From positions 1 to 64,000 of the forward strand of contig NZ_JAAGWK010000034.1 of the NCBI RefSeq assembly GCF_010685995.1: DNA of 64,000 nt, read 5' to 3'. Positions 6,533 to 18,997 of this stretch are shown here, in pieces. Origin of the DNA: Goekera deserti. GTDB taxonomy: Bacteria > Actinomycetota > Actinomycetes > Mycobacteriales > Geodermatophilaceae. Position numbers and translations under genes: made by a program. Position 1 is the stretch's first letter. Each line of letters begins with the position of its first letter. A model generated the notes under the pieces. It ran no database searches, had not been told where the DNA came from, and saw only the letters and a list, made by a program, of their open reading frames with translations.

Positions 6533-7354
6533 TCAGCCGACCGGCTGCCCGGCCGGCGATTGCACCGGTACCGGCCCGGGCACGTGGTACAGCCGGCCCT
6601 CCTGGGACTTGACCGTGGCCACCAGCACGAAGCTCATCGTGACCAGCAGCGCCCACGCGCCGAGCTTGTCGGCGTGCACGGCCTCCCACACGTCCTCCTG
6701 TCCGGGGTACTGCCAGGCACCCAGGAAGGTCGCCGCGTTCTCCGCCACCCAGAGGAACGTGCCGATCAGCACGAAGCTCAGCGCCAGCGGCATCCGGTAG
6801 CGGGCGTCGCCCACGGTGAAGTGCACCCAGCAGCGGCGCAGCACCAGCAGGCCCGCCACCGCCAGCGGCACGCGCAGGTCGACCCACCAGTGGTGGGTGA
6901 AGAAGTTCGCGTAGACGCCGACGGCCACCACCGTCGTCGCCGGTGCCGGGTAGTGCGACACCCGCAGGTCGAAGCGGCGCCAGGCCTGGCAGATGTAGGA
7001 GCCGACCGCGGCGTACATGAACCCGGAGAACAGCGGGACGCCGGCGACCACGGTGACCGCGTCGCCCACCGGGTAGCTCCATGAGCCCTGGTGCACCTTG
7101 AACAGCTCCAGGCCCAGGCCGAGGCCGTGGAAGCCGGCGATCACCAGGACCTCCCGCCAGGTCTCCAGGCCGGCCACCCAGAACCCCAGCGTGACCAGCA
7201 CGCACCACGCCAGCAGCGCGTCGAACCGGGCGATCGGCAGCGGCACCACCTGTGCCAGGGCCAGCCCGGCGAACAGCGCCGCGGCGAAGGCGCAGGACTG
7301 CAGCTCCAGCCAGGCGAAGCGGAGCAGCTGCGCAGCGGCGCGTCGGACGGGCAC
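6533..7354 (-). CDS. DUF817 integral membrane protein
   Basis: A 273-residue protein with about eight hydrophobic segments. The conserved motifs of DUF817 are present: LELFKVHQGSWSYP, the FFTHHWWVDLR segment and ADKLGAWALLVTMSFVLVATVK. The motifs, rich in His and Trp within membrane borders, are diagnostic of the family, but no activity is known for it. The GTG start is the first available. It is a single gene, with the acyltransferase-like genes beginning on the same strand further upstream. Confidence 0.75.
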   Translation of the reverse strand: MPVRRAAAQLLRFAWLELQSCAFAAALFAGLALAQVVPLPIARFDALLAWCVLVTLGFWVAGLETWREVLVIAGFHGLGLGLELFKVHQGSWSYPVGDAVTVVAGVPLFSGFMYAAVGSYICQAWRRFDLRVSHYPAPATTVVAVGVYANFFTHHWWVDLRVPLAVAGLLVLRRCWVHFTVGDARYRMPLALSFVLIGTFLWVAENAATFLGAWQYPGQEDVWEAVHADKLGAWALLVTMSFVLVATVKSQEGRLYHVPGPVPVQSPAGQPVG

Positions 7355-7408: not shown

Positions 7409-8770
7409 TCACCAGACGGTGGCGGTCAGGCCCCAGGCGGCGATCTCCGCCGAGACCAGGGTCTGCAGGGTGCCGCTGGGCCCGAGCCGGCCCGCGTCGG
7501 CCATCACGCCCAGGGTGATGTCCTCGCCCCAGCGGCCCAGGCCGATGGTCAGGTCGGTCATCATCGGGCCGCCCATCAGGTAGGCAGCGCTCGCCTGGTG
7601 CCGGCCCAGCCGACCGATCAGGTCCGGCAGCGGCCCGACGTTCGAGGCCACCCCGTCGGCGCCCTGCGCGAGGACGGCGAGCCGGTTGCTCAGCGCGCTG
7701 GGCAGCAGCCGCATCGCGTCCACCACGCCGGTCGGCCCGGCCGGGCGGCCGTCGCGGCGCGAGGCACCGACCGGTGCGGCCGCCTCGATGGCCCGCTTGG
7801 TGGCCACGCGCACGTCGGCGATCGAGCCGTGCTGCGGGGTGCCACCGGGCAGCACCACCAGGGCGCCGACGACGGCGTTGGCGGTGACGTCGTGCTGGCC
7901 CTGCGGGCGCTGGTGGCGCAGGTCGACCGGCAGCAGGATGCGCAGCGGGCCGTCGACGGTGTCGCCCCGGGAGAGCCGCGCGGTGCGCAGCAGGTTGGCC
8001 AGCACCGACAGCAGCAGGGTGTTGCCCGACCCGCCGCGCGCCTGCGCGACGCCGTCCCAGTCCGCGGCGCGCACCCGGGTCAGGGCCATCAGCCGGCGGC
8101 CGGACCGGGCACCGACCCCCTGGTTGCGGCTGCGCACCGCCGCGATGGTCGGGCTCAGCCGCTGCAGGTCACCGGTGGCCGACGGCCGGGCCAGCGCCAC
8201 GGCGACCTCCCGGCCCAGGCGCACCGTGCCACCCAGACCGTGTCGCACCCGGGTGACCACGTCACCGAGCTCCTCCACGGTGTCGGCCCGCCAGCCGCGC
8301 ACCGGGGCCTGCTGCGGCACGGTGCTCGACCCGCCGCCGAACCCGTGCGTCAGCAGGGCGCGCGCGTCGCCGTAGGCGTGGTTCACCCACAGCGACACCA
8401 TGCTGCCGCCGTCGGCGGTGCGGGCGGCGGCCATCCGCCACCCGGCGGTGGCCGCCGGGTCGATCTGCTGGCTGGCCTCCTCCTCCATCAGCGCCATGAG
8501 CTCCGGGACGGAGAGCTCGTCGGGCTCGAAGCGGATCGGCGGCAGGTCGGCGGCCGGCGCCCAGCGCAACCGGGCCCCGGGCACCCGCGGGCGCACCACG
8601 CGGCGGCCCAGGCCCTGCGGGTCCTGGGCCAGCTCGTTGGCCCAGCGCAGCAGCGCGTCCCCGGTGACCGGCTCGTCGTAGTGCCGCAGCAGCCCGATGC
8701 ACGGCCGGTGCAGACCGGTGCGGGTGGCGGCGACGTACATCGCCGCGTGGTCGTCCAGGGGGATCTTCAC
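7409..8770 (-). CDS. WS/DGAT-like acyltransferase-fold protein, paralogue 1 (HxxxD intact)
   Basis: A 453-residue protein with the two-lobe plan of the wax ester synthase/diacylglycerol acyltransferase and condensation superfamily. The catalytic-type motif is at residues 131-135 (NHAYGD). The central region LRILLPVDLR and the C-terminal SNVGPLPDL match the WS/DGAT landmarks (a PVSxR-like and an SNVPGP-like segment). It retains both His and Asp but lacks the following Gly and the preceding second His of canonical HHxxxDG. The GTG start has a GGAGAAG ribosome site. It is the last of three tandem paralogues. Acyltransferase activity is plausible; substrates cannot be inferred. Confidence 0.6.
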   Translation of the reverse strand: MKIPLDDHAAMYVAATRTGLHRPCIGLLRHYDEPVTGDALLRWANELAQDPQGLGRRVVRPRVPGARLRWAPAADLPPIRFEPDELSVPELMALMEEEASQQIDPAATAGWRMAAARTADGGSMVSLWVNHAYGDARALLTHGFGGGSSTVPQQAPVRGWRADTVEELGDVVTRVRHGLGGTVRLGREVAVALARPSATGDLQRLSPTIAAVRSRNQGVGARSGRRLMALTRVRAADWDGVAQARGGSGNTLLLSVLANLLRTARLSRGDTVDGPLRILLPVDLRHQRPQGQHDVTANAVVGALVVLPGGTPQHGSIADVRVATKRAIEAAAPVGASRRDGRPAGPTGVVDAMRLLPSALSNRLAVLAQGADGVASNVGPLPDLIGRLGRHQASAAYLMGGPMMTDLTIGLGRWGEDITLGVMADAGRLGPSGTLQTLVSAEIAAWGLTATVW

Positions 8771-8824
8771 GCTTCTCCTCGGGCAGGGGTGCGGTGGGTG
8801 GGACGGGTGTTCACGGGGTCCGGC

Positions 8825-10237
8825 TCACCAGCGGCCGCCGCGCAGGCCCCAGCCGCGCAGCTCGTCGCCCAGCCAGCCCCGGACGTCGGCGCCGGGCCCC
8901 AGCCGTGACGGGTCGCCCACGACCGTGATCCCCACCGAGTCGGGCCCGCGGCTGAGCGCGGCGATGAGGTCCAGCGCGATCGGCCAGCCCATGGTGGCGG
9001 CGGAGGTGGCGGTGTGCCGGCCCAGCCGGCGGACGCCGGCCGGCATCGCCCCGGGGTTGCTGGCGCAGGCGTCGAAGGACAGCGCCGCGCGCTCGGCGAA
9101 GCGGATCGCCAGCGCCTCGGGCAGCAGCCGGGCCGCGTCGTTGAAGCCCCGCACGGGCGGTGCGGTCGCGGCGTCGGCGACGAAGGCGGCCTTCATCCAC
9201 CGGCGGGTCACGGTCAGGTCGCCGTACTGGGGCGGGCCGCCGGGCAGCACCAGGGAGGCCGTGACCATGTTGGGCCGCACCCCCAGTGCACCGTCGCGGC
9301 GTTCGCCCACGGCGTCGGCGCCGAGGTCGATGGGCAGCACCAGCCGCACCGGCCGGTCGACGTCGCCGCCCCGGCCGACCCGGCCCCGGCGCACCATGTT
9401 GGCGGCGATCGCGGCGAGCAGCGTGTTCCCCGTGCCGCCGAGCTCGGCGGCACGGGTGTCCCACTCCTCGGCGGAGAACTCGGCGATCACACCCGACCGG
9501 GCCGGGCCGGGAGAGCGCCGGGTGCGGTCCCGGCCCCGCGGGTTCGGGATCGGCGGCGGGTCGGTGACCGGGGCCTTGGCCGCGCTGTCCCGGCTGGCCG
9601 CGGCGCGCAGCGCGTCACCGGTCATCCGGCCGGCACCCCGTACCCCCAGCACCAGCCGCTCCACGACGCTGCGCAGCTCCTGCCGCAGCTCGTAGCGCTC
9701 GTGGGCCTGGAAGGTGAGCCCCACGGTGCCGTCCCGCGGGTCCACCGAGCCGTCCCCGTACGCGGCCTCCAGCACCCCGGGCGCGATGCCGTAGAGGTGG
9801 TGCACGATCACCAGCACGACCGTGCCGCCGTCGGTGGTGTGCGCGGCGGTGACCAGCCAGCCGTGCCCGTGCTCGGGGTCCAGCGGGGTGGGCAGCTCGC
9901 CGTCGAGCCACCCGGCGAGCGCGTCGGAGTCCACCGGCCGCGGGGCGAGCCGCACCGGCGGCGGCACCGGCGTGGCCACCCAGCGCCGCCGCCCGCCCGG
10001 TACCCGGCGCGGCTGCACCCGGCGGCCCAGCGCGTAGGGCGAGGCGGCCAGCCGTTCGGCCTCGGCGGTGAGCTCCTCCACGCTGATCCGGGTGGGGAAG
10101 CGCAGCACCCAGCCCATGTGCGGCAGCACGGTGCCCATCCGGCCGGCGCGCAGCACGAGGCTCGCCTGGTCGGCCAGCGGGACCTCACCGCCGGCGGTGT
10201 GCGGGGTGATCGGGGGCAGGTCGGTCAGCGGGAGCAC
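8825..10237 (-). CDS. WS/DGAT-like acyltransferase-fold protein, paralogue 2 (Asp lost)
   Basis: About 470 residues, homologous along its length to its two neighbours. At the catalytic position it has HHLYGI (His146-His147, then Ile151 where Asp is expected), so the HxxxD acid is missing. It keeps the central LVLPIDLG and a C-terminal Ala-Ser-Asn-Pro-Gly in place of Ser-Asn-Val-Gly. The GTG at 10237 has a strong AGGAGGG site five bases upstream; the 34-residue in-frame extension is Pro-rich and unsupported. Either a pseudo-enzyme or a structural partner of paralogue 1. Confidence 0.55.
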   Translation of the reverse strand: MLPLTDLPPITPHTAGGEVPLADQASLVLRAGRMGTVLPHMGWVLRFPTRISVEELTAEAERLAASPYALGRRVQPRRVPGGRRRWVATPVPPPVRLAPRPVDSDALAGWLDGELPTPLDPEHGHGWLVTAAHTTDGGTVVLVIVHHLYGIAPGVLEAAYGDGSVDPRDGTVGLTFQAHERYELRQELRSVVERLVLGVRGAGRMTGDALRAAASRDSAAKAPVTDPPPIPNPRGRDRTRRSPGPARSGVIAEFSAEEWDTRAAELGGTGNTLLAAIAANMVRRGRVGRGGDVDRPVRLVLPIDLGADAVGERRDGALGVRPNMVTASLVLPGGPPQYGDLTVTRRWMKAAFVADAATAPPVRGFNDAARLLPEALAIRFAERAALSFDACASNPGAMPAGVRRLGRHTATSAATMGWPIALDLIAALSRGPDSVGITVVGDPSRLGPGADVRGWLGDELRGWGLRGGRW

Positions 10238-10360
10238 GGGGACCCTCCTGGGTTCGGCGCAGGCGGTGGGGGCTGGACCGGCGGACGGTGGCGGTCGGGG
10301 CCCGCCCGGTGGGGCCGCGTCCCGGCCGTCGCCGGGCACGGCCGGGCGTCGTCCGGTGGC

Positions 10361-11725
10361 TCACCAGACGCGGGCGGGGATCCCCCAGGCGGCGAGCTCG
10401 GTGGCCAGGCGCTGCGGCAGGGACGGGCCACCGCCGAGGCGACTGGGGTCGGCCACGATGCTCATCTGCACCCGGCCGTCGTGCCGGGCCACCGCGATGG
10501 AGACGTCGCTGCCCATCGGGCAGGCCATCAGCACGGCGTCGGTGGCGGTGTTGTCGCCCAGGCGCAGGATGCCCGGCGGCATGTCGCCGACGTTGGAGGC
10601 GGCGGCGTCGTAGTGACCGTGCACGCTGGTCACCACCCGGCGGGTGAGCTCGTCGGGCAGCAGCTTCATCGCGTCGACGAGCCCAGGGGCGATGGGGACC
10701 CGGCCGGTCCGGGCCACCTGTGCCGACGCCTCGCCGAAGGCCCTGCGGGTCTCGGCGCGCACGCCGGCCAGGCTGCCGTAGGAGGCGCGCCCGCCTGGCA
10801 GGACCACCGTGGCGCTGGTGAGCTGGATCGGGCCGACGGTCGCGGCGGCGTCGGGCAGCTCGGTCCGGTCGGCCAGGTCGACCGGGACGATCATGCGGAT
10901 CGGCCGGCCGGCCGGCCCGCCGCGGGCGGCGCGCGCCTCGCGGGCCAGGTTGGCGATCAGCGCGACCTGCATGCTGGTGGCGGAGCCGCCCAGCTCGGCC
11001 GCGCGCCCGTCCCAGTCGGCCGCGGCGACGGTCGCGATGGCGGCCACCCGACGCGGGGACCGCCGTCCCCGGCTGGGGTCACGGTCGCGGACGGCGCGCA
11101 GCGGTGCGCGCAGGGTGTCCAGCTCGCCGTCGGGGCGCAGGCCCCAGGGCAGCATGGCGATCTCGCCGCCGAGCCGGGCCAGGCCCACCACGCCGCTGCG
11201 CAGCCGCTCGAGGGTGTCCTTGGCCTCGGCGAGCAGTTCGGGCTTGCCCAGCTGCAGCGCCTCGAGGTCGAGCTCGGGCGCCGGCACGTCGCCGTACAGG
11301 GTGGTGATCACGTCCCGGCCGTGGCCGAACAGGTGGGCCATGCCCAGCGTGACGACGGTGCCGCCGCGCACGTCGTGCGCCGCGGCGAGCTGCCAGCCGG
11401 GACCGCGCTCGGGGTCGTGCCGAACGCTCACCTGCTCGTCCATCCAGCGGGCGAGGCCGGCCTCGTCCAGCGGCTCGTCGGGGCCGACGACCGGGGGCGG
11501 GGTGGTCGCCATCGCCCAGCGGGGCCGCGCGCCGAGGACCTTCGGGGCGCGCAGCTTGCGCCCCAGGCCGAAGGGACTGGCCGACACGCGAGCGGCCTCG
11601 TCCTGCAGGTCGGAGAGCGGGATCTTCTCCGCGAAACGGGTGACGATCGCCATGTTGGGCAGCTCGGCGCTGCGCTGGGCAGCGAGGAGCATCAACGAAC
11701 CGTGCTCGACCAGCGGTACGTCCAT
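10361..11725 (-). CDS. WS/DGAT-like acyltransferase-fold protein, paralogue 3 (Asp replaced by His)
   Basis: First gene of the tandem trio, 454 residues. The start is the ATG at 11725: the first residues, MDVPLVEHGSLMLL, align with the start of paralogue 1, and AGGAGGA lies just upstream. The catalytic-position motif is HLFGH (His131 to His135), so Asp is replaced by His. The central MIVPVDLADR and the C-terminal SNVGDMPPG remain close to the WS/DGAT consensus. The 246-bp upstream region, divergent to an aldo/keto reductase, holds an AT-rich inverted repeat. Activity uncertain. Confidence 0.55.
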   Translation of the reverse strand: MDVPLVEHGSLMLLAAQRSAELPNMAIVTRFAEKIPLSDLQDEAARVSASPFGLGRKLRAPKVLGARPRWAMATTPPPVVGPDEPLDEAGLARWMDEQVSVRHDPERGPGWQLAAAHDVRGGTVVTLGMAHLFGHGRDVITTLYGDVPAPELDLEALQLGKPELLAEAKDTLERLRSGVVGLARLGGEIAMLPWGLRPDGELDTLRAPLRAVRDRDPSRGRRSPRRVAAIATVAAADWDGRAAELGGSATSMQVALIANLAREARAARGGPAGRPIRMIVPVDLADRTELPDAAATVGPIQLTSATVVLPGGRASYGSLAGVRAETRRAFGEASAQVARTGRVPIAPGLVDAMKLLPDELTRRVVTSVHGHYDAAASNVGDMPPGILRLGDNTATDAVLMACPMGSDVSIAVARHDGRVQMSIVADPSRLGGGPSLPQRLATELAAWGIPARVW

Positions 11726-11769
11726 GACGCGGTTCCTCCTGAGCTGAGACGACGTGGTCCAGGACACTA

Positions 11770-11792
11770 TGTGTGTATCCAGCGATCACACA
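11770..11792. promoter_or_regulatory. Inverted repeat in divergent promoter region
   Basis: TGTGTG (11770-11775) and CACACA (11787-11792) form a perfect inverted repeat; extending inward gives ATC/GAT with one extra base. It lies 45 bases upstream of the first acyltransferase-like gene in the most AT-rich stretch locally, where a minus-strand promoter (TTTGTG near 11794) is likely. A repressor or activator site is plausible. Confidence 0.35.
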
Positions 11793-11971
11793 AAGACCTG
11801 GGAGTGAATTCCGTCATCCCCTCGGGTGAGGTCGTCAGCACGAGGGACCCGGAGCGCACCGGCCGGGGCGCGAGGCGACGGTCCGGGTGTCGCCCGCAGG
11901 GGTGGAGCGGGCGTCCCGCGCAGCGGGCGGCCGGGTGGACACCGGCGCGGAGCCCGCGCGACGATCACCGG

Positions 11972-13003
11972 GTGGCCCACCTCGCACAGGACTCCCGCTA
12001 CGACTCCATGACCTACCGCCGTACCGGCCGCAGCGGCCTCGACCTGCCGGCCATCAGCCTGGGGCTGTGGCACAACTTCGGGGACGACGTGCCCTTCGAG
12101 CGGCAGCGGGCCATCCTGCGCCGCGCCTTCGACCTCGGGATCACCCACTTCGACCTGGCCAACAACTACGGGCCGCCCTACGGGTCGGCGGAGACCAACT
12201 TCGGCCGGCACCTGGCCGACGACTTCCGCCCCTACCGGGACGAGCTGGTCATCTCCTCCAAGGCCGGCTGGGACATGTGGCCCGGCCCCTACGGCCAGGG
12301 CGGTGGTGGTCGCAAGTACGTGCTGGCCAGCCTGGACCAGTCGCTGGCCCGGATGGGCCTGGACTACGTCGACGTCTTCTACTCCCACCGGCCGGACCCG
12401 ACCACGCCGCTGGAGGAGACGATGGGCGCGCTGCACAGCGCCGTCCAGGCAGGCAAGGCGCTGTACGTGGGGATCTCCTCGTACTCGCCGCAGGCCACCG
12501 CCGAGGCCGCTGCCCTGCTCGCCGACCTGGGCACGCCGCTGCTCATCCACCAGCCGTCGTACTCGATGCTCAACCGCTGGATCGAGACCGAGGGGCTGCT
12601 GGACACCCTGGAGCAGGTGGGCAGCGGCTGCATCGCGTTCTCCCCGCTGGCCCAGGGCATGCTCACCGACAAGTACCTGCACGGCGTGCCCGAGGGCTCC
12701 CGCGCCAGCCAGGGCAAGTCGCTGTCCACCGACCTGCTCAGCGACGAGGCCCTGACCCGGATCCGGGCGCTGGCCGGCATCGCCGAGGCGCGCGGGCAGA
12801 GCCTGGCGCAGATGGCGCTGGCCTGGGGCCTGCGCGACCCCCGGGTGACCTCGGTGCTGATCGGCGCCAGCAGCGTGGCCCAGCTGGAGCAGAACGTGGC
12901 CGCGCTGGACCACCTGGACTTCTCCGCCGAGGAGCTGGCCGCGATCGACGAGCACGCCGCGGACAGCGGCATCGACCTCTGGGCCGGCGCCCGCACGGCG
13001 TGA
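11972..13003 (+). CDS. Aldo/keto reductase, YghZ (L-glyceraldehyde 3-phosphate reductase) type
   Basis: A 343-residue NADPH-dependent (beta/alpha)8 reductase. The sequence tracks E. coli YghZ/Gpr closely: SLGLWHNFG, DLANNYGPPYGSAE, KAGWDMWPGPYG, ALYVGISSYSP and LIHQPSYSMLNRW. The catalytic tetrad is Asp61, Tyr66, Lys97 and His139. The start at GTG 11972 is chosen because VAHLAQDSRYDSMTYRRTG aligns with the YghZ N-terminus; the ATG at 12008 would cut that segment. YghZ reduces L-glyceraldehyde 3-phosphate and other aldehydes, so detoxification is the likely role. Stands alone, followed by a strong hairpin. Confidence 0.88.
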   Translation: MAHLAQDSRYDSMTYRRTGRSGLDLPAISLGLWHNFGDDVPFERQRAILRRAFDLGITHFDLANNYGPPYGSAETNFGRHLADDFRPYRDELVISSKAGWDMWPGPYGQGGGGRKYVLASLDQSLARMGLDYVDVFYSHRPDPTTPLEETMGALHSAVQAGKALYVGISSYSPQATAEAAALLADLGTPLLIHQPSYSMLNRWIETEGLLDTLEQVGSGCIAFSPLAQGMLTDKYLHGVPEGSRASQGKSLSTDLLSDEALTRIRALAGIAEARGQSLAQMALAWGLRDPRVTSVLIGASSVAQLEQNVAALDHLDFSAEELAAIDEHAADSGIDLWAGARTA

Positions 13004-13011
13004 GCGGCCTG

Positions 13012-13042
13012 CCCCCCACCCGGTGACCGGCGGGGTGGGGGG
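13012..13042 (+). terminator. Intrinsic terminator-like hairpin
   Basis: CCCCCCACCC (13012-13021) pairs perfectly with GGGTGGGGGG (13033-13042) around an 11-base loop, nine bases after the aldo/keto reductase stop codon. No T-tract. Confidence 0.6.
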
Positions 13043-13090
13043 AACACCGGGGGGCGCGTCGACGATCCAGAGAGGGTGGGCGTCGGACCG

Positions 13091-14725
13091 ATGGAGGACA
13101 GGGAGGCGACCGGGGTGCCCGGGCGTGCCCTGCGCGACCTCCGGCGTGCCGACGCGGTGGACGACGCCGTCGTGCACCGGCTGGTCGCCGAGCTCGACGA
13201 GATCGAGGGCCTGCCGCGCGCCGACCCGACGGGTGCGGCCCTGCGGGCCGTCGACGTCGCCCTGCAGGCCCATGACCTGGGGCTGCCGGAGCTGGAACGG
13301 CGCGCGCAGCTGGTACGGGCCGACGTGCTGGACCGGCAGGGCCGGGTGGCCGAGGCGGGACGGATCGCCCAGGACGTGCACGCCTGGGCCGCCCAGCACG
13401 GCGCGCGCTACCTGCAGGCCCGCAGCCACCACGTGCTCGAGCTGGTGTTCTCCGACCTCGGCGACACCGCCGTGGCGCTGGAGCACGCCCTGCACGCCGT
13501 CGACCTGCTGGACGACCGGGGCAGCCCGGCCGTGCGGATCGACCACCTGCTGCGGCTGGCCGACTGCCTGAGCAAGAACGGCGACCACGCGGCGGCCCGC
13601 CGGCGCTTCCCGGACGTGCTGCGGCTGGCCGGCGAGGTCGGCGACGTGTCCCGGGTCCTGCTGGTGCTCAACAACTGGGCCTACGCCGAGACGGTGGCCG
13701 GGCACCACGAGCGTGCCCTGCGGCTCAGCGAGCAGCTGCAGGCCTCCGCCGACCGGCACGGCGTCCCGCTGGGGCTCGGCGAGCGGGACACGGTGGCCCG
13801 GGCGCTGATGGGCCTGGGCCGGTGGGAGGAGGCCGAGGAGCTGCTGGCGGCCGCTCTGGTGCCCGAGCCGCCGGACCGGGCACCCGAGCCGGACATGCTC
13901 GGCGAGACGCTGCTGACCCTGGCCCAGGTGCGCCGGGCCCGCGGCCGCTCCGCCGAGGCCCAGCAGACCCTGGACGAGTGCGTGCGCACGTGCGAGGAGA
14001 ACGGGCTGTCCGGGGTGCGGGTGCGGGCCCGCGAGGAGCAGGCCCAGCTGCACGCCGCCGGCGGGCGCTACCGGGAGGCCTACGAGGAGCACCGGCGCTT
14101 CCACGCCGAGACCACCGAGCTGCGCTCGCTCGAGCGGGACGCCCGGGCCCGCACGCTGCAGGCGGTGTACGAGACCAGCGAGGCCCAGCGGGAGAGCCGG
14201 GCCTACCGGGAGCTGTCGCTGCGGGACTCGCTGACCGGGCTGTACAACCGCCGGCACGTGGAGCAGGAGGTGCAGCCGACGCTGCACCGCAGTGCCGACC
14301 GCGGCCGGGCGGTGACCGTGGCGCTGCTCGACCTCGACCACTTCAAGCAGGTCAACGACCGCTGCTCGCACGGTGTCGGCGACCAGGTGCTGCAGGTCGT
14401 CGCCGAGCACCTCGCCCGCGCCGCGGAGCAGACCGGGCGGGCCGGCTCGTTCGCGGCCCGGATGGGCGGTGAGGAGTTCCTGCTGGTGCTCGTGGGGCCG
14501 GCGCACGAGTCGGCGGCGCAGCTGGAACGGGTACGGCGCACCGTCAGCGGCCACCCGTGGGGCCCGCTGACCGGGGAGGTGCCCGTGACGGTCAGCATCG
14601 GCGCCGTCGTCGTGGTGCCCGGCGGGCCGCTGCCCGACCTGCCCACCCTGCTGCGGCTGGCCGACCAGCGGCTGTACCGGGCCAAGAGCCTGGGCCGGGA
14701 CCGGGTGGTCGTCGACGCCGGCTGA
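13091..14725 (+). CDS. TPR-GGDEF diguanylate cyclase
   Basis: About 544 residues with no membrane segment. The N-terminal two-thirds is helical, with repeated Leu/Ala-rich pairs typical of TPR units (for example AVALEHALHAVDLLDD, RALRLSEQLQASADRHG). After a short coiled linker (RELSLRDSLTGLYNRR) comes a GGDEF domain with LLDLDHFKQVND and an intact MGGEEF active-site loop, so it should make c-di-GMP from GTP. No RxxD inhibitory site is obvious. The ATG at 13091 is used; a GTG at 13076 is also possible. Likely a cytoplasmic sensor cyclase in which the TPR part receives a signal. Confidence 0.8.
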   Translation: MEDREATGVPGRALRDLRRADAVDDAVVHRLVAELDEIEGLPRADPTGAALRAVDVALQAHDLGLPELERRAQLVRADVLDRQGRVAEAGRIAQDVHAWAAQHGARYLQARSHHVLELVFSDLGDTAVALEHALHAVDLLDDRGSPAVRIDHLLRLADCLSKNGDHAAARRRFPDVLRLAGEVGDVSRVLLVLNNWAYAETVAGHHERALRLSEQLQASADRHGVPLGLGERDTVARALMGLGRWEEAEELLAAALVPEPPDRAPEPDMLGETLLTLAQVRRARGRSAEAQQTLDECVRTCEENGLSGVRVRAREEQAQLHAAGGRYREAYEEHRRFHAETTELRSLERDARARTLQAVYETSEAQRESRAYRELSLRDSLTGLYNRRHVEQEVQPTLHRSADRGRAVTVALLDLDHFKQVNDRCSHGVGDQVLQVVAEHLARAAEQTGRAGSFAARMGGEEFLLVLVGPAHESAAQLERVRRTVSGHPWGPLTGEVPVTVSIGAVVVVPGGPLPDLPTLLRLADQRLYRAKSLGRDRVVVDAG

Positions 14726-14843
14726 GCGGCCGGCCCGAGCGCGGGGTCACCGCTCCCCCGACCGGCGAGCACCGGTGCGGGCACCCGGGACCACCTCGGC
14801 GCAAGATGGGGGCCGTCCGCCGTCTCGACGCAGAGGGGTCACC

Positions 14844-16157
14844 ATGGCCGCGCCCACGTCCGACCCGCCCACCCGGCACTCCCCCGCCCAGCCGGAGAGC
14901 GTCTTCACCTACGGCGCGCCGCAGCTGAAGTTCGGCCCCGGTGCCGCCGACGAGATCGGCTACGACCTGAGCCAGACCGGCGCGCGCCGGGTGCTGGTGG
15001 TCACCGACCCCGGGGTGGCCGCGACCGGCATCCCGCAGCGGGTGGCCGACCAGATGGGCGGCTTCGGCATCGAGGCACACGTGTTCGACGGCGCGCACGT
15101 CGAACCCACCGACCAGAGCCTGCAGCACGCCGTCGACTGGGCCCGGGAGCACGGCCCGTGGGACGCGATCGTCGCCGTCGGCGGCGGGTCGAGCATCGAC
15201 ACCGCCAAGGCGGTCAACCTGCTCACCACCAACGACGGCGAGCTGATGGACTACGTCAACGCACCCGTCGGCGGCGGGCGGGCACCGTTGAAGCCGCTGC
15301 ACCCGCTGGTGGCCGTGCCGACGACGACGGGCACCGGCTCGGAGAGCACCACGATCTGCGTGCTGGACGTGCTGGCGCAGAAGGTGAAGACCGGGATCAG
15401 CCACGCCCGGCTGCGCCCGACCCTCGCCGTCATCGACCCGTCGCTGACCCTCACCCAGCCGGCCGGGGTGACCGCGGCGTCGGGCATGGACATCCTCTGC
15501 CACGCCCTGGAGAGCTACACCGCGCGCCCGTACACCACCTACGAGCGCAAGGCGCCGGACGCGCGGGTGCCCTACTGCGGCGCGAACCCCATCTCGGACA
15601 TGTGGTCGGAGAAGGCGATGACGCTGCTGTCCACGAGCTTCCGGCAGGCGGTGCGGCACGGGGAGGACGAGGAGGCCCGCGGCCACATGGCCATGGCCGC
15701 CACCTTCGCGGGCATGGGCTTCGGCAACGCCGGGGTGCACATCCCGCACGCCAACGCCTACCCGATCGCCGGCCGGGTGCGGGACTTCCACCCCGCGGAC
15801 TACCCGGACGACCACGCCATGGTGCCGCACGGCATGTCGGTGGCGCTGACCGCGCCGGAGGCCTTCCGGTTCACCTACGACGCCTGCCCCGAGCGGCACC
15901 GGCGCGCGGCACAGCTGCTGGACCCGCGCGCCGACGAGCCGGCCACCGCATCGGAGTTCCTGCCCGGCGTGCTGATCGCGCTGATGCGCGACATCGGCAT
16001 CCCGGACGGCATCGGCGCGGTCGGCTACACCGACGGCGACGTCCCCGACCTGGTCGCGGGCACCATGCAGCAGCAGCGCCTGCTCGCCACCGCCCCCAAG
16101 GACGTCACCGAGGACGACATGGCCGGCATCTACCGCCGCTCGATGCAGCTGTGGTGA
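14844..16157 (+). CDS. Hydroxyacid-oxoacid transhydrogenase-like iron alcohol dehydrogenase
   Basis: A 437-residue group III (iron) alcohol dehydrogenase of the ADHFE1/HOT branch. GGGSSIDTAK binds NAD(P); SGMDILCHALESYTARP and GNAGVHIPHANAYP carry the metal-binding His residues. The insert PYTTYERKAPDARVPYCG before NPISDMWSEKA is characteristic of HOT rather than of ordinary alcohol dehydrogenases. HOT moves a hydride from 4-hydroxybutyrate to 2-oxoglutarate, giving succinate semialdehyde and D-2-hydroxyglutarate without net NAD turnover. The ATG follows an AGAGGGG site. The next gene starts within its stop codon, linking it to a 2-hydroxyacid dehydrogenase. A role as a lactaldehyde- or butanol-type dehydrogenase is less likely. 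Confidence 0.8.
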   Translation: MAAPTSDPPTRHSPAQPESVFTYGAPQLKFGPGAADEIGYDLSQTGARRVLVVTDPGVAATGIPQRVADQMGGFGIEAHVFDGAHVEPTDQSLQHAVDWAREHGPWDAIVAVGGGSSIDTAKAVNLLTTNDGELMDYVNAPVGGGRAPLKPLHPLVAVPTTTGTGSESTTICVLDVLAQKVKTGISHARLRPTLAVIDPSLTLTQPAGVTAASGMDILCHALESYTARPYTTYERKAPDARVPYCGANPISDMWSEKAMTLLSTSFRQAVRHGEDEEARGHMAMAATFAGMGFGNAGVHIPHANAYPIAGRVRDFHPADYPDDHAMVPHGMSVALTAPEAFRFTYDACPERHRRAAQLLDPRADEPATASEFLPGVLIALMRDIGIPDGIGAVGYTDGDVPDLVAGTMQQQRLLATAPKDVTEDDMAGIYRRSMQLW

Positions 16158-18997
16158 CCGTCGAGGCGACCGCACCCGCCCACACCGGCCCCGACCCCGG
16201 GCTGGCCGACGCGCTGCGCCGGGCCGGGGTCACCGACGTCGACGACTCCGGGCTGGCCCGGGCGCTGTACTCCACCGACGCCTCGCTGTACCGGGTGCTG
16301 CCGCTGGCCGTGGTGCGCCCGCGGCACCCCGACGAGATCATGGCCACGCTGGAGGTGTGCCGCGCCCTCGGGGTGCCGCTGACCGCCCGCGGGGCAGGCA
16401 CCTCGATCGCCGGCAACGCGGTGGGCCCCGGGGTGGTCTTCGACACCAGCCGGCACCTGCACCGGGTGCACGCGGTCGACGCCGAGGCGCGCACCGCGGT
16501 GGTCGACCCGGGCGTCGTCCAGGCGTCGCTGCAGGCCGCCGCCCGGCCGTACGGGCTGCGCTTCGGGCCCGATCCGAGCACGCACAACCGCTGCACGATC
16601 GGCGGGATGATCGGCAACAACGCCTGCGGTTCCCGGGCGCTGGGCTACGGCCGGACGTCGGACAACGTCGTCGCCCTGGACGTGGTCACCGGCGCCGGAG
16701 CCCGGCTGCGTCTGGACGACGGTCCGGTGGGCGGGGACGGGGTGCCCGCGCCGCTGCAGGCGCTGGTCGACGCGCACCTGGCCACGATCCGCACGGAGCT
16801 GGGCCGCTTCGGCCGGCAGGTGTCCGGCTACTCCCTGGAGCACCTGCTGCCCGAGCGCGGCCGCAGCCTGGCCCGCACCCTGGTGGGCAGCGAGGGCACG
16901 CTCGCGCTGACGCTGGGGGCCACCGTGCGGCTGGTGCCGGAGCCGTCGGCGCGGGCGCTGGTGGTGCTGGGCTACCCGTCGATGGCCGACGCCGCCGACG
17001 CCACCCCCGGGCTGCTGCCGTACCGGCCGACCGCGGTGGAGGGGCTGGACTCCCGGATCATCCAGCGGCTGCGCGACGTGCCGGCCGCCACCGTGCCGGA
17101 GCTGCCGCGCGGGGAGGGCTGGCTGATCGTCGAGGTCACCGGCGACGACCCGGCCGAGATCGCCGACCGGGTCGGGAAGATGGTCGCCGGGGCCGGCGCG
17201 GTGGACGCCCTGGTGGTCAGCGACGCCGCGCAGGCCGGCGCGATCTGGCGGATCCGGGAGGACGGCGCCGGGCTGGCCGCGCGCACCAGCGACGGCCGGG
17301 CCGCGCACGCCGGCTGGGAGGACGCCGCCGTCCCGGTGGAGCAGCTGGGCTCCTACCTGCGGAGCTTCGAGGCGCTGCTCACCGGGCACGGGTTGCAGGG
17401 GCTGCCCTACGGGCACTTCGGTGACGGCTGCGTGCACGTGCGGATCGACTTCCCGTTCGCCGGCGGCGGCACCGCGACCTACCGCAGCTTCATCACCGAC
17501 GCCGCCCGCCTGGTGGCCTCCTACGGCGGCTCGATGTCCGGGGAGCACGGCGACGGCCGGGCGCGCAGCGAGCTGCTGCCGCACATGTACTCCCCCGCAG
17601 CGATCACGCTGTTCGAGCAGGTCAAGGGCGTGCTGGACCCCGACGACCTGCTCAACCCGGGCGTGCTGGTGCGCCCGGCGCCGTTCGACGCCGACGTGCG
17701 GGTGGCCGCGGTGGCCCCGCACCGCACCCAGCTGGCGCTGGCCTACCGGCACGACGGCGGCGACCTGTCCGCGGCCGTGCACCGCTGCACCGGGGTGGGC
17801 AAGTGCCGGGCGGACACGACGTCCACCGGCGGGGTCATGTGCCCCTCCTACCTGGCCACCCGGGAGGAGAAGGACTCCACCCGGGGCCGGGCCCGGGTGC
17901 TGCAGGAGATGCTCGCCCCCGGGGGGCCGGTGCAGGACTGGCGCTCACCGGAGGTGCACGAGGCGCTGGACCTGTGCCTGTCCTGCAAGGGCTGCTCCCG
18001 GGACTGCCCGACCGGGGTGGACATGGCCGCCTACAAGGCCGAGGTGCTCCACCAGTCCTACCGCCGCCGGCTGCGCCCCCGCTCGCACTACGCGCTGGGC
18101 CGGCTGCCGTTCTGGAGCGACCTGGTCGCGCGGGCCCCGCGGCTGGTCAACGGGCTGACCCGCTCCCGGCTGGGCGGCACGCTGGCGCGCTGGGGCGCCG
18201 GGGTCGACCAGCGGCGGTCGCTGCCGGCGTTCGCCACCCGCACCTTCCGCCAGGACTGGACCCCGCGCGTGCCGGACACGCGTCCCCCCGTCGCGCTGTG
18301 GGTGGACTCGTTCACCGACCACTTCGCGCCCGCCGCCGCCGAGGCCACCGTCGCGGTGCTGGAGGCGGCCGGCTACCGGGTGGAGGTGCCCGACGACGAC
18401 ACCTGCTGCGGGCTGACCTGGATCACCACCGGCCAGCTGGACGCCGCCCGGCGGATCCTCGGGCACACGGTCACCACGCTGGCGGCCTACGCGGACGCCG
18501 GCACCCCGATCGTGGGCGTGGAGCCCTCCTGCACCGCGGTGCTGCGCGGGGAGTCCCAGGAGCTGCTGGACGACGGGGGCACGGGCGGGGCTGCGGCCCG
18601 GGTCGCCGCGGCCACCCGCACCCTGGCCGAGCTGCTCACCGGCACCGAGGGCTGGGAGCCGCCGTCGCTGGCCGGGGTGGAGGTGGTGGCCCAGCCGCAC
18701 TGCCATCACCACTCGGTGATGGGCTGGAGCACCGACGAGGAGCTGCTGCGCCGGGCCGGTGCGACGGTCACCCGGGTCGGCGGCTGCTGCGGGCTGGCCG
18801 GCAACTGGGGTGTGGAGAAGGGGCACCACGACGTGTCGGTGGCCATCGCCGAGCAGTCGCTGCTGCCCGCGGTGCGGGCCGCCGGCGCGGGCGCGGTCGT
18901 GCTCGCCGACGGCTTCTCCTGCCGCACCCAGCTCGACCAGTTGGCCGGCGCACCGAGCGAGCACCTGGCCCAGCTGCTGGCCCGGCACACGAGGTGA
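16154..18997 (+). CDS. FAD/Fe-S D-2-hydroxyacid dehydrogenase (YdiJ-like)
   Basis: A 947-residue fusion. Residues 1 to about 520 are a FAD_binding_4/FAD-oxidase unit: AGTSIAGNAVGPG, PSTHNRCTIGGMIGNN, LVGSEGTLALT, GHFGDGCVHVRIDFP, SGEHGDGRARSELL. The second half carries 4Fe-4S cysteines (CTGVGKC; CLSCKGCSRDCP) and two CCG-type motifs (TCCGLTW, GGCCGLAGNWG), like the GlpC/LutA electron-transfer modules. E. coli YdiJ has the same plan and is reported to oxidise D-2-hydroxyglutarate (from memory). The GTGA overlap with the HOT-like gene makes D-2-hydroxyglutarate the favoured substrate; D-lactate is the main alternative. Electrons probably go to the quinone pool. Confidence 0.82.
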   Translation: MTVEATAPAHTGPDPGLADALRRAGVTDVDDSGLARALYSTDASLYRVLPLAVVRPRHPDEIMATLEVCRALGVPLTARGAGTSIAGNAVGPGVVFDTSRHLHRVHAVDAEARTAVVDPGVVQASLQAAARPYGLRFGPDPSTHNRCTIGGMIGNNACGSRALGYGRTSDNVVALDVVTGAGARLRLDDGPVGGDGVPAPLQALVDAHLATIRTELGRFGRQVSGYSLEHLLPERGRSLARTLVGSEGTLALTLGATVRLVPEPSARALVVLGYPSMADAADATPGLLPYRPTAVEGLDSRIIQRLRDVPAATVPELPRGEGWLIVEVTGDDPAEIADRVGKMVAGAGAVDALVVSDAAQAGAIWRIREDGAGLAARTSDGRAAHAGWEDAAVPVEQLGSYLRSFEALLTGHGLQGLPYGHFGDGCVHVRIDFPFAGGGTATYRSFITDAARLVASYGGSMSGEHGDGRARSELLPHMYSPAAITLFEQVKGVLDPDDLLNPGVLVRPAPFDADVRVAAVAPHRTQLALAYRHDGGDLSAAVHRCTGVGKCRADTTSTGGVMCPSYLATREEKDSTRGRARVLQEMLAPGGPVQDWRSPEVHEALDLCLSCKGCSRDCPTGVDMAAYKAEVLHQSYRRRLRPRSHYALGRLPFWSDLVARAPRLVNGLTRSRLGGTLARWGAGVDQRRSLPAFATRTFRQDWTPRVPDTRPPVALWVDSFTDHFAPAAAEATVAVLEAAGYRVEVPDDDTCCGLTWITTGQLDAARRILGHTVTTLAAYADAGTPIVGVEPSCTAVLRGESQELLDDGGTGGAAARVAAATRTLAELLTGTEGWEPPSLAGVEVVAQPHCHHHSVMGWSTDEELLRRAGATVTRVGGCCGLAGNWGVEKGHHDVSVAIAEQSLLPAVRAAGAGAVVLADGFSCRTQLDQLAGAPSEHLAQLLARHTR

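Follow-up and report, generated by a model that had tools for sequence, protein, structure and literature searches.

A recurring trio of paralogous genes in Goekera deserti, one WS/DGAT-like and two lacking the HxxxD aspartate

Three tandem paralogues at one locus

The first 64,000 nucleotides of contig NZ_JAAGWK010000034.1 of the actinomycete Goekera deserti (assembly GCF_010685995.1), hereafter the window, contain three adjacent minus-strand genes with paralogous products, referred to below as copies 1–3. Copy 1 (7409..8770) encodes a protein of 453 aa resembling the wax ester synthases/diacylglycerol acyltransferases (WS/DGAT), in which the HxxxD motif is kept (NHAYGD). The products of copy 2 (8825..10237; 470 aa) and copy 3 (10361..11725; 454 aa), each 36% identical to copy 1, read HHLYGI and AHLFGH at the same place and thus have no Asp there. 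In the alignment, the motif corresponds to H131-x-x-x-D135 of copy 1 (8366..8380), H147-x-x-x-I151 of copy 2 (9785..9799), and H131-x-x-x-H135 of copy 3 (11321..11335), all on the minus strand. When the host genome was searched with the profile of the trio itself, only these three genes matched (E up to 1).

The genes are transcribed in the order 3-2-1, are separated by 123 and 54 bases, and are each preceded by a Shine-Dalgarno sequence on the minus strand: AGGAGG at 11735..11740 for copy 3, which favours the ATG at 11725; AGGAGG at 10244..10249 for copy 2; and GAGGAGA at 8774..8780 for copy 1. A longer open reading frame of copy 2 begins at 10339, but because AGGAGG sits before 10237, we place the start there. 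The coordinates in a preliminary description of the window, made from its sequence, were thus correct, as were its accounts of three intact genes of about 450–470 aa with a ribosome site each, of a first His kept at residues 131–147, and of an Asp position that reads D, I, and H, in each case after an invariant His.

The trio recurs in the class of Patulibacter

A scan of contigs across genomes confirmed one of 183 pattern matches, a locus of Patulibacter americanus with all three copies in the same order as in the window and 71% identity to copy 1. When 399 genomes of the class of this species, which we take to be Thermoleophilia, were searched with a profile, 45 matched at E up to 0.001. Five of them matched strongly and carry the trio (G397, which is P. 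americanus, and G579, G524, G527, and G779); the other 40 scored below 35 bits. Within the family of G579, the trio was found in three of 146 genomes, namely G397, G579, and a further one, G1250, and within the family of G527, in three of five (G524, G527, and G779).

The preliminary description had proposed looking for synteny across the Geodermatophilaceae. In that family, 112 genomes were searched and the trio was found in none but the host, so that the set did not turn up in the 111 other genomes and recurs instead in the class of Patulibacter. Among 397 genomes of the host's order, the host alone carries the trio (116 genomes have some match, the best outside the host reaching 152 bits), and the same holds for a sample of 396 genomes of the phylum, two others of which have one weaker match each (E up to 1e-30); the order, class, and phylum searches scored only three to four candidates per genome, and scattered single copies may escape them.

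All six complete sets, those of the window and five other genomes, have the order 3-2-1 on one strand. In G779, the contig runs out within copy 3, leaving the end of that gene together with copies 1 and 2; among the matches listed, no other genome has a strong copy (>400 bits) without the other two. A single TGA lies inside the matched range of copy 3 of G527 and of copy 2 of G779, and the called genes begin past it; the gene caller was trained on the window, and starts in other genomes may be misplaced.

The Asp is lost in copies 2 and 3 and kept elsewhere

The His of the HxxxD motif is invariant in all 20 trio proteins of the seven genomes, as are Gly134 and Arg56, the latter considered as a possible partner of D135. 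The residue four positions after it (H+4) sorts by copy. It is D in copy 1 of all seven genomes, T or I in all seven copy 2 proteins (D in 0/7), and T, S, or H in copy 3 (6/6, D in 0/6; the contig of G779 stops inside this gene, hence six). Outside the trio, D occupies this position in all 45 aligned rows, which comprise hits in the host's order that scored over 60 bits and include one gene twice, from two overlapping loci; weaker matches were omitted, as was the host's own WS/DGAT, which aligned out of register yet has the Asp. Because D is universal in copy 1 and the outside rows and never occurs in copies 2 and 3, the D/I/H pattern of the window trio, as read from these alignments, exceeds chance.

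The preliminary description had allowed that the Asp might be conserved elsewhere in copies 2 and 3. None stands at H+4, though copy 3 does have an invariant Asp at H+7, within a stretch of its own, HLxGxGRD (6/6). The full HHxxxDG motif is absent from six of the seven copy 1 proteins, which have N or S before the His and A after the Asp; the exception is G1250, whose copy 1 reads HHAYGDG. The Asn aligned with the N of the WS/DGAT ND motif is kept in copies 1 and 2 (14/14) and in no copy 3 (0/6; residue 250 of copy 1). Two other positions distinguish the copies without exception, with C, H, and N at residue 24 and Q, A, and H at residue 369 of copies 1, 2, and 3, respectively.

Copy 1 has a WS/DGAT-like fold

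Searches against Pfam at E up to 10 returned no family for any of the three copies, a null limited by the HMMER filters, which discard most weak matches. In NCBIfam, copy 1 alone matched TIGR02946 (WS/DGAT; E 5.1e-9), and its 35.5 bits fall far short of the cut-off of 309.95; copies 2 and 3 had no match. In the P. americanus set, too, only copy 1 matched, at 44.8 bits. Judged by the curated cut-off, the trio proteins are not members of WS/DGAT.

The sequence of copy 1 matched no PDB chain at E up to 10. Its predicted structure was built from six sequences (predicted local distance difference test score, pLDDT, 68.9; predicted template modelling score 0.73). With Foldseek, the model matched 6chj_B at E 1.4e-16. 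With VIA-align, the best match was 7nxg (Z 23.9; root mean square deviation 3.7 over 327 aligned residues), followed by 6chj_B (Z 23.7; 3.6 over 320); many other proteins of the fold were also matched, among them 8s6l, titled AzeD dehydratase (Z 22.2), and the maize CER6-GL2 complex 9uu3 (Z 17.1). As judged from the model, copy 1 has the two-domain, WS/DGAT-like fold of condensation and chloramphenicol acetyltransferase-type proteins. The fold assigned to all three proteins in the preliminary description is thus borne out for copy 1, by its weak NCBIfam match and by both structure comparisons, and for copies 2 and 3 it finds no profile match; no unrelated fold turned up.

A likely single Asp loss and a probable horizontal transfer

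In a tree of 62 rows (one duplicate row omitted), the 17 trio proteins form a single clade (support 100/100), and each copy forms a clade within it (100/98, 100/100, and 100/99). Copies 2 and 3 group together as sisters (100/98). Support for the branch that links the trio with its nearest relatives is weak (80/62), and the host's WS/DGAT forms a long branch. A 27-row tree that includes G1250 places each G1250 gene with its own copy and again makes copies 2 and 3 sisters, with weaker support (94.4/93). The 'stepwise' loss of the Asp suggested in the preliminary description is not supported by these trees: because copies 2 and 3 are sisters, a single loss is simplest. On the simplest account of the sequences, a first duplication would have been followed by one Asp loss in one of its products and then by the duplication that gave rise to copies 2 and 3, and both duplications and the loss would predate the split of the seven genomes' lineages.

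When the alignments of the copies are joined, the resulting tree separates the window, P. americanus, and G579 from G1250 with support of 100/100, and since G1250 shares its family with P. americanus and G579, the window set nests inside the family that contains Patulibacter. The nearest relative of the window set is P. americanus in this tree (99.7/99), in trees of the single copies (92.7/88, 79/73, and 93/87), and in the 27-row tree (90.6/94, 97.5/96, and 98.2/99); the 62-row tree disagrees for copies 1 and 3, where it pairs P. americanus and G579 at low support (85/51 and 95/69). Because the set nests in the family of Patulibacter while the contig looks otherwise typical of the host's family, these trees suggest that the host probably acquired it horizontally from a donor near Patulibacter. 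Contamination of the contig is unlikely, given that the flanking aldo/keto reductase and DUF817 genes resemble genes of the host's family. We compared four relatives in search of an empty insertion site; the surroundings of the reductase gene differ among them, and no clean junction was found.

All three copies are under similar constraint

Nonsynonymous and synonymous divergence (dN/dS) between the window and P. americanus was 0.21/0.61, 0.24/0.59, and 0.21/0.58 for copies 1–3 (NG86), that is, ratios of about 0.35, 0.41, and 0.37, and between G524 and G779 it was 0.17/0.76 for copy 1 and 0.066/0.60 for copy 2; dS by this method is probably underestimated, since G or C fills almost every third position. 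Across the same six genomes, the columns invariant within each copy number 108, 113, and 128 for copies 1–3, and over all sequences, 105, 112, and 128. By this count, copies 2 and 3 equal or surpass copy 1, so that constraint is not relaxed in the copies without the Asp. By these measures, all three copies appear to be under similar purifying selection, and copies 2 and 3 are maintained down to 41–45% identity to the window proteins. The preliminary description had judged that the set is not decaying, and the intact frames in the window, the similar constraint, and the recurrence of the whole set all agree with this.

Neighbouring genes

In the window, a DUF817 gene (6533..7354, minus strand) lies 54 bases downstream of copy 1 and is possibly co-transcribed with the trio. 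We considered it as a part of the system and rejected it, as it is not beside the trio in the other six loci; it has counterparts of 64–65% identity in three of 24 other genomes of the host's family that were searched. Past it, downstream of the trio, lies one of two genes for Rv1733c-family proteins (NF050032; 663-1301 and 5854-6468, both on the plus strand). On the other side, an aldo/keto reductase gene (11972..13003, plus strand) is divergent from the trio. It is found at 81–87% identity in 14 of the same 24 genomes and at 66–72% in three more, with a best match of 77% outside the family, and it is a flank typical of the host's family that lies outside the system.

In the other genomes, an EryCIII-like glycosyltransferase gene immediately follows the trio of P. 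americanus; a divergently oriented one, 54% identical to it, adjoins that of G1250; and the start of a protein that appears similar, cut by the gene caller at 161 aa, follows that of G579. In G524, the trio is followed by genes for an ABC ATPase and a MacB/FtsX permease, both identified by profile (the best NCBIfam match of the ATPase is LolD, under cut-off). The same pair follows the trio in G527, with the ATPase identified by profile and the permease by its sequence start, and in G779, with both identified by sequence start only. Two of these ABC ATPases (L077, 5961-7061, and L078, 11919-13106) have an N-terminal stretch matching Thiamine_BP (PF01910), over the cut-off in L078 and under it in L077.

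Comparison with known systems

Copy 1 resembles the bacterial WS/DGATs (TIGR02946; 6chj and 7nxg) in fold, length, and HxxxD motif and, by eye, in an N-terminal PLD and a C-terminal SNxG stretch. The set differs from them in its very low profile scores, in the missing first His of HH in most copy 1 proteins, in an ND motif of which only the Asn is kept, and in the Asp-less copies. The host's full-length WS/DGAT (L005; G000:C16:121484-122848; TIGR02946, 488.5 bits) has Pro in place of the second His of HHxxxDG (HPALVDG). This Pro variant occurs in all eight host-family loci inspected (L005 and L069-L075), and HHxxxDG in all 25 loci of the P. americanus class (L044-L068), in a survey whose search pattern admitted only His or Pro at that position. 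Both His are reportedly essential, to go by the title of a 2009 paper by Stoveken. In Rhodococcus, one report describes Pro at the second His in one gene and three WS/DGATs in which the second His, not the Asp, is changed (PMC2667194).

The nearest sequence relatives found are WS/DGAT-like genes of the host's order and class, which often occur in tandem, as in L080, and have glycosyltransferase (L080) and exporter genes as neighbours; unlike the trio, all of these rows keep H...D, and they fall outside the trio clade. The clusters that contain them also encode PapA-like proteins of the condensation type, glycosyltransferases, and ABC-2 transporters, as judged by profile for L080 and L117 and partly for L084. 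We considered a parallel Asp loss in their condensation-type neighbours and rejected it, as ten of ten have H...D (three Pfam-confirmed). In L080 (G396, ~8018-13671), four WS/DGAT-like genes, identified by profile, stand in tandem beside GT1, GT2, ABC-2 transporter, and condensation-type genes, and from this gene content the locus looks like a glycolipid cluster. L117 (G1040, 7951-16988), from another family of the class, combines one WS/DGAT-like gene and an apparent fragment of another with three condensation-type genes and ABC transporter genes.

Proteins of this fold that act as partners rather than as transferases have precedents. The X-domain of glycopeptide synthetases, a domain of the condensation type, is described as lacking catalytic activity and binding Oxy P450s (PMC5238595), and it is a precedent for the condensation fold as a non-transferase partner (PMC11546977). 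It is like the proposed role of copies 2 and 3 in being an inactive fold that serves as partner and recruiter, and unlike them in being a nonribosomal peptide synthetase domain that binds P450s and has an HRxxxDD motif, with no close sequence relation shown. The plant BAHD proteins CER2 and GLOSSY2 (GL2) are HxxxD-fold, non-transferase partners of a lipid enzyme (PMC5489795, PMC11269236), and CER2 can do without its predicted catalytic His in wax elongation (PMC5489795). They differ in pairing with a ketoacyl-CoA synthase instead of a paralogue, and in that their function has been tested in plants, whereas the trio is known from genes.

Discussion

We tentatively favour the view that the trio is one functional unit, in which an acyltransferase, copy 1, may act together with two Asp-less partners on one lipid or glycolipid. 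Copy 1 would be a WS/DGAT-fold O-acyltransferase that moves an acyl group using H131. Copies 2 and 3 would be Asp-less paralogues beside it, most likely non-acyltransferase partners in the same complex, and would hold or orient the acceptor, the acyl chain, or the product. The set would probably acylate or assemble a lipid or glycolipid that is glycosylated, exported, or both. From the gene sequences and their arrangement we infer the physical complex, the substrate, and a lack of acyl-transfer activity in copies 2 and 3. A bolder form of this proposal, which we hold with less confidence, is an obligate three-subunit acyltransferase, that is, a WS/DGAT-type pseudoenzyme complex. In it, duplication and a single Asp loss would have given two Asp-less WS/DGAT-fold subunits, each with fixed residues of its own, and neither would have parted from the active subunit despite deep divergence and horizontal transfer from one bacterial class to another.

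Several points weigh against a partnership of this kind. It rests on conserved linkage and joint occurrence, and only seven trios are known. The fold was seen for copy 1 alone, as the model of copy 3 was poor (pLDDT 49.6) and was kept out of the structure search. The glycosyltransferase of P. americanus has no match in the host genome (in a search that lacked a positive control), and the neighbour in the window is DUF817. The invariant His of copies 2 and 3 is odd for pure scaffolds. Finally, maize GL2-LIKE, unlike GL2, requires an intact HXXXDX for full complementation (PMC11269236).

The same His leads to the closest alternative, that all three proteins are active acyltransferases that differ in their acceptors, or in the positions they acylate on one molecule, and act in turn. 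The His would suffice in copies 2 and 3, with Thr, Ile, Ser, or His structurally replacing the Asp. The invariance of His131, Gly134, and Arg56 accords with this, as do tandem WS/DGAT-like genes that all have D in the host's order (for example, in G396) and a modelling study of one BAHD enzyme in which the Asp was structural and not strictly catalytic (cited in PMC5489795). On the other hand, loss of the Asp was seen nowhere else in the sample, and in OsCER2 some HXXXD substitutions impair both function and partner binding, D176A and D176H among them, which weakened elongation activity (PMC5489795). Sequence alone cannot choose between Asp-less partners and Asp-less active enzymes, and we regard three active enzymes as possible, if rather unlikely. 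It is less probable still that copies 2 and 3 carry out another chemistry on the same fold, such as dehydration, hydrolysis, or epimerisation, by means of the kept His. Epimerisation and heterocyclisation domains do have this fold (PMC11546977), the structure titled AzeD dehydratase ranks with the best matches to the model, and copy 3 has an invariant stretch of its own; but it is copy 1, rather than copy 2 or 3, that matches the dehydratase, and we found no pathway context for a step of this kind.

That the nearest solved structures are WS/DGATs might also suggest ordinary storage machinery for triacylglycerols or wax esters. We consider this very improbable, given the far sub-threshold score of copy 1 and the lack of Pfam matches, the full-length WS/DGAT that the host has elsewhere (albeit with Pro for its second His), the rarity of the set, and the glycosyltransferase or exporter-type genes that adjoin it outside the host. 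Decay of the duplicates, copies 2 and 3, is less likely again, its chance being close to negligible: a motif residue has been lost, but the window frames are intact and have their own Shine-Dalgarno sites, dN/dS is similar to that of copy 1, and the conservation described above extends across deep divergence.

We found no such trio described in the literature on WS/DGATs and pseudoenzymes that was within the scope of our search, which left out most subscription journals. If the proposed partnership of copy 1 with copies 2 and 3 is correct, these would be bacterial HxxxD-fold, non-catalytic partners of a paralogous lipid enzyme, alongside plant CER2/GL2 and the X-domain. The set would offer a natural test of the role of the HxxxD Asp, with two paralogues that have lost it and kept the His and, within one operon, a sister copy that has the Asp and could serve as a control. 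The trio would also flag an uncharacterised locus for a lipid or glycolipid in Patulibacter and related bacteria.

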